From an uncultured Nitrospirota bacterium (GTDB lineage Bacteria > CG2-30-53-67), in contig CAMYMF010000017.1 of the NCBI GenBank assembly GCA_947259355.1, forward strand, positions 1 through 44,062: 44,062 nt of DNA. Direction: 5' to 3'. The notes beneath the pieces were generated by a model, which saw only the letters and a list, made by a program, of their open reading frames with translations, did no database searches and had not been told where the DNA came from. Below are positions 5,363 to 21,295 of the stretch, piece after piece (position 1 is the first letter of the stretch; every line of letters starts with the position of its first letter). The position numbers were made by a program, and so were the translations under genes.

Positions 5363-5916
5363 GGCACTCCCCGGACCTTGCAGCGCGCCCGGGCCACCCC
5401 TGCAAGCTCCTCCAGATAGTGACGCATGATCTCCTCGCCCAGCCACCGGGGATCCACACCCAGATCCTCGAGTCCCACCACACGAACCGGGGCGCCGGCC
5501 CGCGTCACATTCAGGCCAAGATGCACCATGGTGGAGACGGGTGTTGCGACCGCGATGGAGACAGAGAGTTTGGCCTCCCCGTCGAACAGGTCGTCGCCCC
5601 GCCGGGCGATTCGGATCTGTCCGAGGCGCCCGTTGATTTGCTCTGCGGCCAAACAGACCAGCAGTCGCTGGCGCAGGATGGAGGTCTCGAGATCGGCGCC
5701 GAAGTGTTCCGCGATCAGATGGAGCATCCGGTCACTGCGGATCGGAGCACGGGCCTTCACGTCCTCGAGATCGGCCATCCGGTCCAACGGCACATCGCAG
5801 GGGCCGACAAAGGCCACCAGACTGTCGCCCATCAGGTCGAAGCGTTCGTAAGCCCAGTGGGACCGCAACTCCCGGCCGGTATAGGCGATTTCCTTCTCCA
5901 AGTATCGACCTTCCAC
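5359..5916 (-). CDS. DUF366-family protein
   Basis: A 185-residue protein I recognise as DUF366 (PF04017): EIAYTGRELRSHWAYERFDL at the start, MLHLIAEHFGADLE and the internal NGRLGQIRIARRGDDLF block. The family has no established reaction; members are often neighbours of deazaguanine genes, as here, where its stop codon overlaps the queE start in ATGA. A role in queuosine or related nucleoside metabolism is therefore inference. A TTG at 5931 is in frame, but the GTG at 5916 has GGAGGG at a proper distance and matches the usual N terminus (MEGRYLEKE), so I chose it. No membrane segments are seen. Confidence 0.8.
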   Translation of the reverse strand: MEGRYLEKEIAYTGRELRSHWAYERFDLMGDSLVAFVGPCDVPLDRMADLEDVKARAPIRSDRMLHLIAEHFGADLETSILRQRLLVCLAAEQINGRLGQIRIARRGDDLFDGEAKLSVSIAVATPVSTMVHLGLNVTRAGAPVRVVGLEDLGVDPRWLGEEIMRHYLEELAGVARARCKVRGVP

Positions 5917-16750: not shown

Positions 16751-19144
16751 TCAACGATCCAGCGCGTGCCGCACGGCGCTTGCGATCGTCTCGAAAGTGA
16801 CCGGTTTTCGGATGAAGGCCCCCGCCCCCATCCGCTGTGCCTCAACGACCCGTGCCGACTCGGCATAACCCGAGAGGAGCACCGCCCTCTGCGCCGGATA
16901 GGTCTTTGTGATGCGTCTGTAGGTCTCAGTGCCGTCGATCCCGTCCATAATCATGTCGAGTATGAGCAAATCCTGCGGGTGTTCCGCCGCATGGGCCACG
17001 GCCCCCTCCCCGCTCTCCACACTCTGGACGACGTAGCCTAGCTTTGTCAACAAATGGGTGAGCACCTCGCGCTGAATCGGATCGTCGTCCACCACCAGGA
17101 TCCGTTCCGTCCCTGTCGGGATGTCTGCCACCACGTCCGTAGATTCCGAGGGAGTTTCCCTCGTGATGGGGAAATAGAGAGAAAAGGTGGTCCCTTGACC
17201 GGGACGGCTTGCGACATCCAGATAGCCCTCATGATCCTCCGTCACCGCCCGAACCACGCTGAGACCGAGGCCCGAGCCCCGTTTCCGATCCGTCTTCTTG
17301 GTTGTGAAAAAAGGATCAAAAATGCGATTCAGAACTTGCGGGTGGATCCCAGTGCCCGTGTCGATGATATCAACCCTGACGTATTCGCCTCTAAGAATGG
17401 TTTCATAGTTCTTCAGGGGTGAATCGAGGTAGACGTTTCGCGCGGTGACGGTGAGCGTCCCCATGTCGGCCATGGCCTCCACGGCGTTGGTAATGAGATT
17501 CGTAAAGACGCGGTCGAGCTGTGACGCCCCGCCCTTGACCGGCAGCAGATCGGGTGCGAACCTCTTTTCCAGTACTACCGTTTTGGGAAAGACCATCCCC
17601 TCGAGCAGCGTGTCGAGCAGTCGCACCAAGGAGAGTACTTCGAGATTGTAATGCCCGCGCCTTCCCAACGTCAACAGCTGCTGGTTGATCTCTGCCATCT
17701 GAATGGCCGCGGCCTGCATCGCCTCGAGCAGGGGCAGGGTCGGGTCTCCTTCCCGGCATTCCAGACGAACCAAATCGGGGTAGGCCGTGAGCGGAGACAG
17801 GAGGTTGTTGAAGTCATGGGCGATCTGCCCGGCGACGCGTCCGGCCGCTTCGAGGCGCTGGGCCCGGGAAAGCTCCTCCTCCAGGCGCTTGCGGTCGGTC
17901 ATGTCCTCGAAAACACCGATGCCGCCGGTGACGGTGCCGTCATTCGAAACGATCGGATTGTAATCGGCCCGGAGAGAACGCGTCTTTTTCCCCGTCACAG
18001 AGGTGTATTCCCCTTCGAAATGCCCCGTGCCGCCCGACAGAGCCGCCTGAATGGCTTCTTTCATCCGGGGATCTTTCAGCGAGCGGAGCGTGTCAAAACC
18101 AACCTGTTTCTCTTTCGGCGCACCCATGATGCCTGCGAAATAGTCGTTGCACGCCGTGCAAATTCCTGCGGCATCAAAGTGCATAATCCCGAGGGGCGCA
18201 TTCTCGAAAATCAGGCGGTATTTCTCTTCCGATTCCCGCAGGACCCGTTCCGCGTTCTTCCGGTCAGTCACATCCGTGGCGATCTCCAATCGGACCAGTC
18301 TCCCGTCGACCCACCGGATGGCCCGGTCCCGAACTTCGTACCATCTCTGGTTTATGGTGTTCTGGAAATCCCACAGTACGGTCCCCGTGGGCTCGCCGTC
18401 CGGTCCCACTAGGCGGTCATTCGTACAGAATTCGCAAGGCCCGCTCTGCCCGGTCTGGAGCGCCTGCCAGCAGGGCCGCCCCACGATATCGCCGAAGATG
18501 TTACACGTATAGTCGTTCACAAAGAGGACTTCGTGGGTCTCTAGATCAGAGACATACACGATCGCGTCCAGGCTGTTCAGAACAACCAGCAGTCGTTCAT
18601 GGGACTCCCTCAGCGCCGCTTCCGACTTTTCCTGATCGGTGATGTCGATGCCGGTCGCAATGACGTACTCAACCTGGCCTTGGGGTCCGAGCAGGGCGGT
18701 GTTGGACCATGCCATGAGCCGCAACGTTCCACCCTAGGTGACCCAATGGTGCTCATCCCGGTTCGGGAAGTGCCCCGCCTTCATGCAGTGGTACACTTCC
18801 CGCACGGCGTCGATCTCGGACGGCGGCACCAAAAAGTCCCAAACGGTACACCCCCGGACCTCCTCGAAACGGTAACCGGTGAGTGTTTCGCAAGCCTGGT
18901 TGAACTGGACGATCCGCCCCTCGCCGTCGAGCACCGTGACGACAGCCCCGACCGTCTCAAGAACGGCGGAAGCTAATTCGCCGTCCAGGCTGAACGAGGC
19001 TGGATCATGGGGACTGTCTGAATCGGAACCGGGGTTCGGCTGCTTACGTTGGATGGGAGACTGTGATGTGGCGTCGCTGAATTGACGGCGGGCGACATCG
19101 GGCCGCCTGTCGGAAGATGCCTGGGGCTGTTGCCGAGGCTTCAT
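16751..19144 (-). pseudogene. PAS-PAS-PAS hybrid histidine kinase split by an in-frame TAG
   Basis: One continuous reading frame interrupted by a single TAG at 18736-18734. The upstream piece (136 codons, ATG at 19144) holds most of a first PAS domain; the frame continues after the stop with GGTLRLMAWSNTALL, the rest of that PAS. Then come a second PAS with a CEFC cysteine pair, a third PAS, HisKA with the phospho-His in GQIAHDFNNLL, HATPase (GSGLGLSVVRAVTEDHEGY) and a C-terminal receiver with the Asp in LLILDMIMDG. It would be a soluble hybrid sensor kinase. The break may be a nonsense mutation, an assembly error or a recoded codon; the downstream part could start at TTG 18724 but then lacks most of PAS1. 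A strong promoter precedes it. Confidence 0.8.
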
Positions 19145-19344: not shown

Positions 19345-19530
19345 CTACGCCGCGTCATTCAACGCAGCGAGCAGAGCATCCACTGCGACGCCGTCTGCCC
19401 GGGCCGTCGCCTCAATGGACGCCCCGCCGCCGCAGCAGGCGTCAACGTTGAAGCGGTTGAAGACCGCAATGGTTTCGGGGTATTTCTTGATCACGTCATT
19501 GATGATCATATCTTTGGTGATGGGAGTCAT
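19345..19530 (-). CDS. stand-alone DUF542 (ScdA/RIC N-terminal) protein
   Basis: A 61-residue protein made only of the DUF542 domain: MTPITKDMIINDVIKKYP, then the family-defining double cysteine at C32-C33 (DACCGGG). In ScdA/YtfE/RIC proteins this domain precedes a di-iron hemerythrin domain and the pair repairs iron-sulfur clusters damaged by nitric oxide. Here the hemerythrin part is absent, as in other short members. The cysteines may handle NO, metal or electrons; this is inference. GAGGAG lies before the ATG. It is the last gene of the run DUF1858-cupin-DUF542. Confidence 0.85.
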   Translation of the reverse strand: MTPITKDMIINDVIKKYPETIAVFNRFNVDACCGGGASIEATARADGVAVDALLAALNDAA

Positions 19531-19544
19531 GGAATTATTCTCCT

Positions 19545-19862
19545 CTACCCGGGCCGGGGCGCGACCACCGCCAGGACTGCCAGACGGGTAACGGCCCGGA
19601 TGCCATGGGGCACATCGGGCGCACAGGGCACGATATGCCCAGCAGACGCTTGGGTCTTTGCGGTTCCTACCGAAAACTCACCCTCCCCTTCCAGCACCTG
19701 CATCATCACCGTCGACGGGGCCGTGTGAGAGGCAATCTCCTGCCCCGGCTCCAAACAGAGCAAAGCCATCCGCAGATGCTCCGAATCGTGCAGCAACTGT
19801 TTCACCGGTTTGTCCGGCGAGAATTTGCGCAGGGCACCCGTATCGATGATTTCCGTCGTCAT
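19545..19862 (-). CDS. small cupin-domain protein
   Basis: A 105-residue single-cupin protein with the conserved first motif region MALLCLEPGQEIASHTAPST and VLEGEGEF, and the second motif GHIVPCAPDVPHGIRA. Metal ligands can only partly be matched: His in ASHTAP and His in PHGI are present, but the Glu and the second His of motif 1 are not obvious. Such proteins accompany NO- and redox-stress genes in anaerobes. The ATG follows AGGAGG. It lies between DUF1858 and DUF542 genes, 14 bases before the latter, so it should share their regulation. Confidence 0.8.
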   Translation of the reverse strand: MTTEIIDTGALRKFSPDKPVKQLLHDSEHLRMALLCLEPGQEIASHTAPSTVMMQVLEGEGEFSVGTAKTQASAGHIVPCAPDVPHGIRAVTRLAVLAVVAPRPG

Positions 19863-19912
19863 TGAACCCTCCTACACTGCGTCAGGCCGCAATTCCGCAG
19901 CCTGGCAATCTT

Positions 19913-20122
19913 TTAAACTTTGGTCCTCAGCATTTCGTTGATCTCATCCACGATCGTCTTCGGATCGAGATTGTGCATGGTCGAGCCGAAGGCCAGGGTC
20001 TCGACATTGATGCCGGGACAGGTGAAACAGCCGTTGCCGAAATGCTTTTCGATGATGGCTTTCGCCTCGGGGCTCATTTTGATCACTTCGCCGATGACCG
20101 AATCTTTGGTTACCTGCTGCAT
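19913..20122 (-). CDS. DUF1858 redox-disulfide domain protein
   Basis: A 69-residue protein with the DUF1858 pattern (hybrid-cluster-associated redox disulfide domain): VTKDSVIGEVIKMSPEAK, the cysteine pair C32-x2-C35 (GCFTCPGI) and a closing TIVDEINEML helix. The CxxC lies at a helix start and may cycle between thiol and disulfide. Members often sit beside hybrid cluster protein genes in NO or nitrite stress regulons. Here it heads an operon with a cupin and DUF542 gene, and a Crp/Fnr-type site with matching -10 element lies about 100 bases upstream. Confidence 0.85.
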   Translation of the reverse strand: MQQVTKDSVIGEVIKMSPEAKAIIEKHFGNGCFTCPGINVETLAFGSTMHNLDPKTIVDEINEMLRTKV

Positions 20123-20189
20123 GATGCCACCTCCCTGTTGGATCTGTCCGGGGGAAAACTCCTGGACTCCACGCCATTTTTCCTTTCAC

Positions 20190-20233
20190 AGGATATCCGA
20201 TCGGGTCACGGCGTGCGGTGATCTGAATCACAA
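20190..20233 (-). promoter_or_regulatory. Crp/Fnr (HcpR-like) class II promoter, DUF1858 operon
   Basis: Minus strand: TTGTGA (20233-20228), six bases, TCACCG, which matches TTGTGA-N6-TCACAA, the HcpR/Crp-type consensus, at ten of twelve positions. A -10-like TATCCT lies at 20195-20190, and the predicted start puts the centre of the operator at -41.5, the classical activator position. Control by an NO- or redox-responsive Crp/Fnr protein is inferred. Confidence 0.65.
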
Positions 20234-20258
20234 ATTGGACGGTTTTTGGGCAGGCAAT

Positions 20259-20447
20259 TCAAATGCTGGACGGTCCGCTGTTGTACTTCTCCCAAAAGTA
20301 CTTGCCGGCCACCACCTCCTCGGTCAACTTGTCGGAATTGGTGTAGGCCGGGATGGTGGACATGGTGTGAATGGTCAAAGCGAAAAAAACAATCATGCAG
20401 GCGAAGGATCCGATGAAAAACCAGTTCCTGGCGGTGTTCTTGGTCAT
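20259..20447 (-). CDS. NorC-like membrane stub lacking the haem domain
   Basis: A 62-residue protein matching the membrane anchor of the nitric oxide reductase small subunit NorC: TARNWFFIGSFACMIVFFAL, IHTMSTIP, and LTEEVVAGKYFWEKYN. In NorC this is followed at once by the CxxCH haem site; here the chain reads NSGPSSI and stops, with no CxxCH in any frame downstream. The ATG has a strong AGGAGG, so the gene is probably translated. It may be a truncated remnant or a small membrane partner of the short oxidase-like protein encoded divergently at 20885. The reductase NorB itself is not present. Confidence 0.7.
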   Translation of the reverse strand: MTKNTARNWFFIGSFACMIVFFALTIHTMSTIPAYTNSDKLTEEVVAGKYFWEKYNSGPSSI

Positions 20448-20520
20448 GTCAAACCTCCTTGGTTGGCTTATGGACCCTCATACAAGGGATACACCGGTGT
20501 TGGTTCACCTCCTTTCGCTG

Positions 20521-20580
20521 ATGATATTGTCTTTCGCCCCGATATAGCATGCGTGATCCTCATGAGAGACTCCAACAGGT
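20521..20580 (-). promoter_or_regulatory. conserved 45-bp motif, copy 1, upstream of NorC-like gene
   Basis: On the minus strand this carries CTCTCATGAGGATCACGCAT followed by GCTATATCGGGG. It aligns without gaps to copy 2 at 30721-30780, sharing CTCTCAT.A.GAT.AC.CATG and ATATCGGGG. It lies roughly 90-130 bases before the NorC-like start and may be a shared operator or promoter. The regulator is unknown. Confidence 0.45.
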
Positions 20581-20794
20581 CCCCGCGGCGCCACAGACAA
20601 GGCGCAGAAAATTTTCTGTAACGCCGCATGTGGCAGACTCTCCGTCTTGGCAGAATGCTACGCCGTGACAAGTCCGGCCTTGTACATAGATTGCCTCAAG
20701 CAATATCCGGATTGGTCCACAGGGATTCCGCAGCACCTGCCGGGCGCAGCCCGCCGGTACGGTTTCGTTTATACCACCCAAAAGACCGCCGAAC

Positions 20795-20837
20795 CGTGAC
20801 CTGGATCACAGAAAGACCGTTTTGCATCGGATAACAT
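20795..20837 (+). promoter_or_regulatory. Crp/Fnr-like class II promoter for oxidase-like gene
   Basis: CGTGA-N6-TCACA at 20795-20810 (centre 20802.5) precedes a -10-like TAACAT at 20832-20837; a start at about 20844 places the operator at -41.5. A 7-bp inverted repeat TTTGCAT-N8-ATGCAAA (about 20821-20842) overlaps the -10 region and could bind a second regulator. The geometry equals that of the DUF1858 promoter. Confidence 0.6.
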
Positions 20838-20884
20838 GCAAACTGAAACGGGGGCGTGTACGAGCAACTCATAGGAGTCTGAAG

Positions 20885-21295
20885 ATGGAAGGATTTGTCC
20901 AGCGCTTTATCCTGATGGGTGTGATCTACTTCATTGTCGCCAGCCTGTTGGGGCTCGTGATGATTGCTCAGCCCGGCGCGGAGAACCTGCGCTTTGCCCA
21001 TGTGCACCTGAATCTGCTCGGATGGATGTCGATGCTGATCTTCGGAGTGGGCTATCACGTCCTGCCCCGCTTCGCGGGCAAGGTGCTGCACAGCAAGCGT
21101 CTAGCCGAGATTCAGTTCTGGGCCGCCAATGCAGGACTCATCGGACTGGCATTGATTCCCCTCGCCGCCCGGCCGACCGAAGGCGATGCGCTCTATCCGC
21201 TCTTTCTGCTCTCCGGCGTGGTGGAAGTGGCGGCCATTTTGATCTTCGGCTACAACATTCTCATGACCCTTTTCATCGACAGGGCGCCCGGCTGA
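20885..21295 (+). CDS. short cbb3/NorB subunit I-like membrane protein
   Basis: A 136-residue protein with four predicted membrane helices. The central FAHVHLNLLGWMSMLIFGVG followed by YHVLPRFAGK is the type of histidine-bearing helix seen in haem-copper oxidase subunit I and NnrS-like proteins. It is far too short to be a whole oxidase or NO reductase and lacks the other conserved helices. The ATG at 20885 has AGGAG upstream; an in-frame extension to 20822 runs through the promoter and is rejected. Divergence from the NorC-like gene and a Crp/Fnr-type site suggest a joint role in NO or low-oxygen response, which is inference. Haem binding is possible through the paired histidines. Confidence 0.75.
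   Translation: MEGFVQRFILMGVIYFIVASLLGLVMIAQPGAENLRFAHVHLNLLGWMSMLIFGVGYHVLPRFAGKVLHSKRLAEIQFWAANAGLIGLALIPLAARPTEGDALYPLFLLSGVVEVAAILIFGYNILMTLFIDRAPG

Follow-up and report, generated by a model that had tools for sequence, protein, structure and literature searches.

Nitric oxide (NO) regulons have hcp and nor as core members (PMC1274295). In those governed by HcpR, DNR, or NnrR, a palindrome of the Crp/Fnr family stands before hcp and nor (PMC1274295, PMC5701242). The prediction of HcpR regulons is based on arginine, glutamate, and arginine at positions 1, 2, and 6 of the recognition helix, and HcpR1 binds TGTGA-N6-TCACA (PMC5701242). In Bradyrhizobium diazoefficiens, a single Crp/Fnr-type box is common to the two divergent promoters of the NO genes nnrR and nnrS, and the DUF1858 gene bsl7085 belongs to the NO regulon, its expression being dependent on NnrR (PMC6710368). 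The nic cluster of Thermus thermophilus carries nsrR-nsrS-nsrT beside norCBH; the DUF542 protein NsrS and the cupin NsrT are thought to repair an iron-sulfur centre, and the regulator NsrR is of the Rrf2 type, with the site CTTGACCNNGGTCATGG (PMC5748679).

Here we describe a related island in a 44,062-nucleotide stretch of DNA (the window), which is contig C17 of a 3.12-Mb assembly (G000; 94 contigs, 89.7% complete), and compare it with the loci of five further genomes of the same family (G001 to G005).

Results

A preliminary description of the window had named a DUF542 gene, a DUF1858 gene, a cupin gene, a NorC-like piece, and an oxidase-like gene, and all five are present. Four of them lie on the minus strand: the gene for a 61-aa DUF542 (ScdA_N) protein resembling NsrS (positions 19345 to 19530; PF04405, E = 4.3e-12), that for a 105-aa cupin_2 protein resembling NsrT (19545 to 19862; PF07883, E = 4.2e-8), that for a 69-aa DUF1858 protein with a CxxC motif in the context GNGCFTCPG (19913 to 20122; PF08984, E = 1e-9), and a norC remnant of 62 codons (20259 to 20447), which was aligned with the 240-aa NorC of G001. 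The oxidase-like gene, here called COX1-like, lies on the plus strand (20885 to 21295) and encodes a 136-aa membrane protein with four helices (PF00115, E = 1e-12). The DUF542 protein also matched the NCBIfam model TIGR03980 (hybrid-cluster-protein-associated redox disulfide domain) just under the cut-off (E = 1.6e-10), and a match of the DUF1858 protein to this Hcp-associated model likewise fell slightly short of the cut-off. The dN/dS values of 0.08 to 0.09 obtained for the COX1-like gene, the DUF1858 gene, and hcp indicate purifying selection. A PAS-type sensor gene of the window (16751 to 19144, minus strand) is interrupted by a single in-frame stop codon at 18734 to 18736, its two open reading frames (18734 to 19144 and 16751 to 18724) sharing one frame.

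The pair of DUF542 and cupin genes also occurs in G004 and in Thermus. In T. thermophilus SG0.5JP17-16, an Rrf2 regulator gene is followed by a DUF542-cupin-COX1-like set that is divergent from norC-norB. The island resembles this cassette in having DUF542 and cupin genes together with a COX1-like gene beside nor, which in the window is represented by the norC remnant only. In contrast to the NsrR-regulated cassette of Thermus, it carries Crp/Fnr-type palindromes and a separate DUF1858 gene.

Two such palindromes had been reported, each exactly 29 bases before a -10-like hexamer, and this arrangement was borne out. The palindrome TTGTGATTCAGATCACCG (20216 to 20233, minus strand) precedes the DUF1858-cupin-DUF542 operon, and its centre is 29 bases from the hexamer TATCCT (20190 to 20195, minus strand) of the operon promoter; it has a counterpart between norD and the DUF1858 gene in G001, G003, G004, and G005, and the spacing is conserved. 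The palindrome CCGTGACCTGGATCACAG (20794 to 20811) is located between the divergent norC and COX1-like genes, at the same place as in all four nor-bearing relatives. The hexamer TAACAT (20832 to 20837, plus strand) of the COX1-like promoter is 29 bases from its centre, and so is, on the other side, a hexamer that had been overlooked, TATAAA (20768 to 20773, minus strand), which faces norC and belongs to its (former) promoter. If the -10 element occupies positions -12 to -7, a distance of 29 bases places the centre of a palindrome at -41.5. Within the 44-kb window, GTGAN6TCAC matched only at the two island palindromes, a count that is unremarkable given about 0.7 matches expected by base-count arithmetic.

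The interval between norC and the COX1-like gene contains a single palindrome with a -10 hexamer at 29 bases on both sides in each of the five genomes with this locus (G000, G001, G003, G004, and G005). Because correctly spaced -10 hexamers flank it on both sides, CCGTGACCTGGATCACAG probably serves norC as well as the COX1-like gene. The box common to nnrR and nnrS in B. diazoefficiens is a precedent for such sharing, although FixK2 and NnrR use boxes of the TTG-N8-CAA type and the gene concerned there is nnrS, not a short COX1-like gene.

Conservation across the relatives served as the test of the geometry against chance; in G001, G003, G004, and G005, the palindromes of the window recur before the COX1-like gene, norC, and the DUF1858 gene. 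Each of the 19 promoter sites scored at least 4/6 against TATAAT at offset 29, compared to a background of 1.9 to 2.3%, while the next best offset gave 6/19; the sites represent four promoter types (COX1-like, norC, DUF1858, and hcp) in up to five species, and the promoter types are independent of each other but sites of the same promoter in related species are not. A twentieth site, before hcp of G005, was read by eye from the upstream sequence and fits the same offset. All 19 sites have, by sequence, the layout of class II Crp/Fnr promoters, with the centre at -41.5 and 29 bases to the -10 hexamer. A scan of the six genomes with the fixed-spacing pattern GTGAN6TNAC-N22-TANNNT yielded 24 matches, of which 14 were at nor-island (nor or DUF1858) or hcp promoters; the reversed control gave 5. 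These comparisons confirm, at the level of sequence, that the geometry observed in the island exceeds chance. A plain TGTGAN6TCAC scan (31 places versus 4 in the control) was set aside as evidence, most of its matches being intragenic. Also not counted was a gene on contig C16 (L129; 144 aa, no Pfam match), which has site and spacing and for which the fixed-spacing scan gave no counterpart in G001.

In G000, G001, G002, and G003, the hcp promoter carries TTGTGATCNAGATTACAT or a sequence close to it, at the same distance from the -10 hexamer, and the gene product was identified as hydroxylamine reductase/Hcp (NCBIfam, E = 2.5e-238). The preliminary description had suggested looking for such a site before hcp in this genome, and had held that, without an enrichment of the motif upstream of further NO-stress genes, the idea of a common regulator would fail. 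The same palindrome and spacing were found before hcp, and the motif stands before hcp, norC, and the DUF1858 gene alike. As in NO regulons of the HcpR/DNR/NnrR type, hcp (G000 to G003, and G005 by eye) and norC (G001, G003, G004, and G005) thus have a common upstream motif. Another possible target, the nrfH-nrfA region of G000, contains no such site, and neither the second DUF1858 gene (contig C10) nor its orthologues are preceded by a convincing one, the nearby matches all having three mismatches. In G004 (contig C153, L130) and G002 (contig C90, L131), palindrome and -10 spacing occur before a CBS-domain gene followed by the gene for an HPP membrane protein; judged from these sites, the CBS/HPP genes are possible further members of the regulon. 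In G003, a match to site and spacing precedes a gene with a nitrite/sulphite-reductase domain.

The search for a regulator of the HcpR/DNR type, which had also been proposed, led to a candidate. The G000 assembly, which at 89.7% completeness could lack a further regulator or another nor operon, encodes only two HTH_Crp_2 proteins. The one on contig C7 has the recognition helix RETVSR and no cysteine, and its orthologues are present in all five other genomes of the family with 62 to 87% identity. The helix is the same in all six orthologues, so that arginine, glutamate, and arginine occupy positions 1, 2, and 6 as in HcpR (R-E-x-x-x-R, CRP/HcpR type). The second Crp-like protein, encoded on contig C1, was rejected as the binder, its recognition helix being non-canonical. 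Because of its helix, the lack of cysteine, and its family-wide occurrence, and because the helix of the other protein is non-canonical, the C7 protein appears to be the best candidate regulator, HcpR/DNR-like in its predicted behaviour. It reached no cut-off among the NCBIfam models. Together with the motif before hcp, norC, and the DUF1858 gene, the presence of this candidate throughout the family supports, as far as sequence can, the earlier proposal that one Crp/Fnr-type regulator of the HcpR or NnrR kind switches the whole island.

The relatives reveal what the island once contained. In G001, a member of the same genus, the COX1-like gene is divergent from norC-norB-norQ-norD-DUF1858; the island of G004 is complete through cupin and DUF542, and the gene order in G003 and G005 agrees as far as their contigs reach. 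In the relatives' island, Pfam supports the assignments of norB (COX1), norC (cytochrome c), norQ (CbbQ/NorQ), and norD (VWA), and orthologues of the DUF1858 gene are located downstream of norD in G001, G003, G004, and G005. When the window was compared with the G001 locus (L072) by blastn, the homology ended at position 395 of that locus and resumed at 5379, about 4.98 kb being replaced by 22 bp without counterpart (20254 to 20275). Thus, norB, norQ, and norD have been lost here in full and norC for the most part, about 5 kb altogether, while the regulatory sites and the accessory genes survive; an intact cNOR operon norCBQD is present in G001 and further relatives. The norC homology of the remnant stops just before the first haem-binding CxxCH. 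Judged from this single assembly, the NorC-like piece is what the deletion left of norC, and the island is a nor locus from which the reductase has disappeared.

The direct repeat TGGACGGT occurs at 20236 and 20267 (20236 to 20274), at the deletion junction; these are its only two plus-strand copies in the window, and it could be a vestige of the deletion event. Since a terminator-like match inside the norC remnant was no better than those in shuffled sequence, read-through from the old norC promoter into the accessory operon is possible. Neither norD nor the COX1-like gene nor a DUF1858 gene of the nor type is present in G002, which keeps hcp with its site; this suggests a second loss of the island in the family.

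Discussion

We consider it quite likely that the locus represents an NO-stress island, that it belongs to an HcpR/DNR-like regulon under Crp/Fnr control, and that the strain has lost the NO reductase itself. The loss would be false if an intact norCBQD operon were present in the genome and the contig were misjoined. The analysis rests on a single draft assembly in 94 contigs with 89.7% completeness, and because the first 55 codons of the norC remnant are still well conserved (dN/dS of 0.12 versus G001), the truncation is either recent or an assembly fault. The 22 bp at the junction, however, match neither flank of the G001 locus, and the window sequence contains no N. Moreover, in the 89.7% complete assembly the search for a norB-type gene gave, besides the COX1-like gene, just an aa3-type coxA, and that for a norD orthologue a sole partial match of 36% on contig C9. 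Such a loss also occurs in the family, as G002 illustrates, and we therefore regard an artefact as improbable.

As to control, the sites could serve a general anaerobic or cAMP-type Crp/Fnr regulator, in which case nor and hcp would simply belong to a wide regulon for low oxygen. The CRP consensus is likewise TGTGA-N6-TCACA, which means that the signal cannot be read from the motif by itself, the closest solved relatives of the C7 protein are general CRP/FNR-family proteins, and the matches before the CBS/HPP genes and the nitrite/sulphite-reductase-domain gene would suit a wider role. Against this, the cysteine ligands of the Fnr iron-sulfur cluster are missing, the G000, G001, and G003 proteins containing no cysteine at all, and the Arg-Ser of CRP that contacts cAMP appears, by eye, to be absent from the expected place. 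Most of the fixed-spacing matches, too, concern NO genes and not broad metabolism. We hold a general regulator to be a doubtful explanation. Control by an Rrf2-type NsrR, which the DUF542-cupin pair would serve as proposed for Thermus nsrRST, has the cassette beside norCB in Thermus (PMC5748679) and the occurrence of Rrf2 proteins in all six genomes in its favour; as no Rrf2 gene was found on the island contig of any of the six and the conserved promoter element is a Crp/Fnr palindrome, we think it very improbable. The regulon represents a variation on the hcp/nor type already known to be under Crp/Fnr control, and it shares with HcpR1 both the R-E-x-x-x-R helix and the TGTGA-N6-TCACA motif. 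It differs from the HcpR, DNR, and NnrR regulons in that its candidate regulator carries no assignment to any of the three subfamilies, DUF1858-cupin-DUF542 and a four-helix COX1-like protein are added to the island, and the NO reductase is lost.

In the ancestor of such an HcpR/DNR-like regulon, one palindrome would have been located between two divergent class II promoters, one for norC-norB-norQ-norD and the other for the COX1-like, haem-type membrane protein; a second one behind norD would have served DUF1858-cupin-DUF542, and a third, elsewhere, hcp. We infer that, when nitrogen oxides accumulate, the C7 regulator, which is free of cysteine and has the helix RETVSR, would activate all these promoters by binding at -41.5, NO being the presumed signal. 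NorCB and Hcp would remove NO, and the DUF542, DUF1858, and cupin proteins and the membrane protein would protect or repair redox and iron-sulfur centres, so that the accessory genes would form a co-regulated NO protection and repair set. The deletion of about 5 kb would then have joined the start of norC to the region before the DUF1858 palindrome, the old norC promoter now reading towards the accessory operon.

Three features are worth following: the loss of the reductase, the symmetry of the shared promoter, and the link between the COX1-like and DUF1858 proteins. The hcp/nor type of Crp/Fnr-controlled NO regulon is extended to a poorly known lineage, with a geometry conserved enough to predict transcription starts, and the persistence of accessory NO genes without the reductase amounts to a natural experiment.

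The closest named record for the COX1-like protein is from an uncultured Nitrospirae metagenome assembly (90% identical). The protein is related to the C-terminal haem-binding part of CcoN, with an NCBIfam ccoN match over residues 37 to 86 that comprises the H-x-H segment; in its homologues H39 and H41 (H39-x-H41) are invariant and H58 is present in most. The AlphaFold model has four helices (pLDDT of 86), and a Foldseek search with it gave cbb3 CcoN chains as the best, weak matches (E >= 7e-3). The Pfam match to NnrS was weak and far below the cut-off. The protein thus shares the H-x-H segment and the fold of the CcoN haem-binding part with the haem-copper membrane proteins of the NnrS/CcoN kind, but with 136 aa it has just four helices. 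In G006, G007, G058, and G070 (L052, L050, L049, and L051), the four-helix domain is fused C-terminally to at least one DUF1858 domain. Judged by gene arrangement, both these fusions and the nsrS-nsrT cassette of Thermus connect the accessory genes with NO reductase. The fusions also join the short COX1-like domain to the DUF1858 domain, and the joint function of the two is directly testable in tractable hosts such as Thermus. It is a speculative idea, which we hold with little confidence, that the H-x-H four-helix protein and the CxxC DUF1858 protein act together as a single, so far unrecognised haem/thiol device in the membrane that serves in the sensing or detoxification of NO or in repair; the DUF542 and cupin proteins would be its partners, and it would have been useful enough to remain under NO control after the loss of the reductase. 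In G070 (L160; contig C1, 78000 to 97500), a Crp/Fnr-like gene is divergent from the gene for a COX1-like-DUF1858 fusion.
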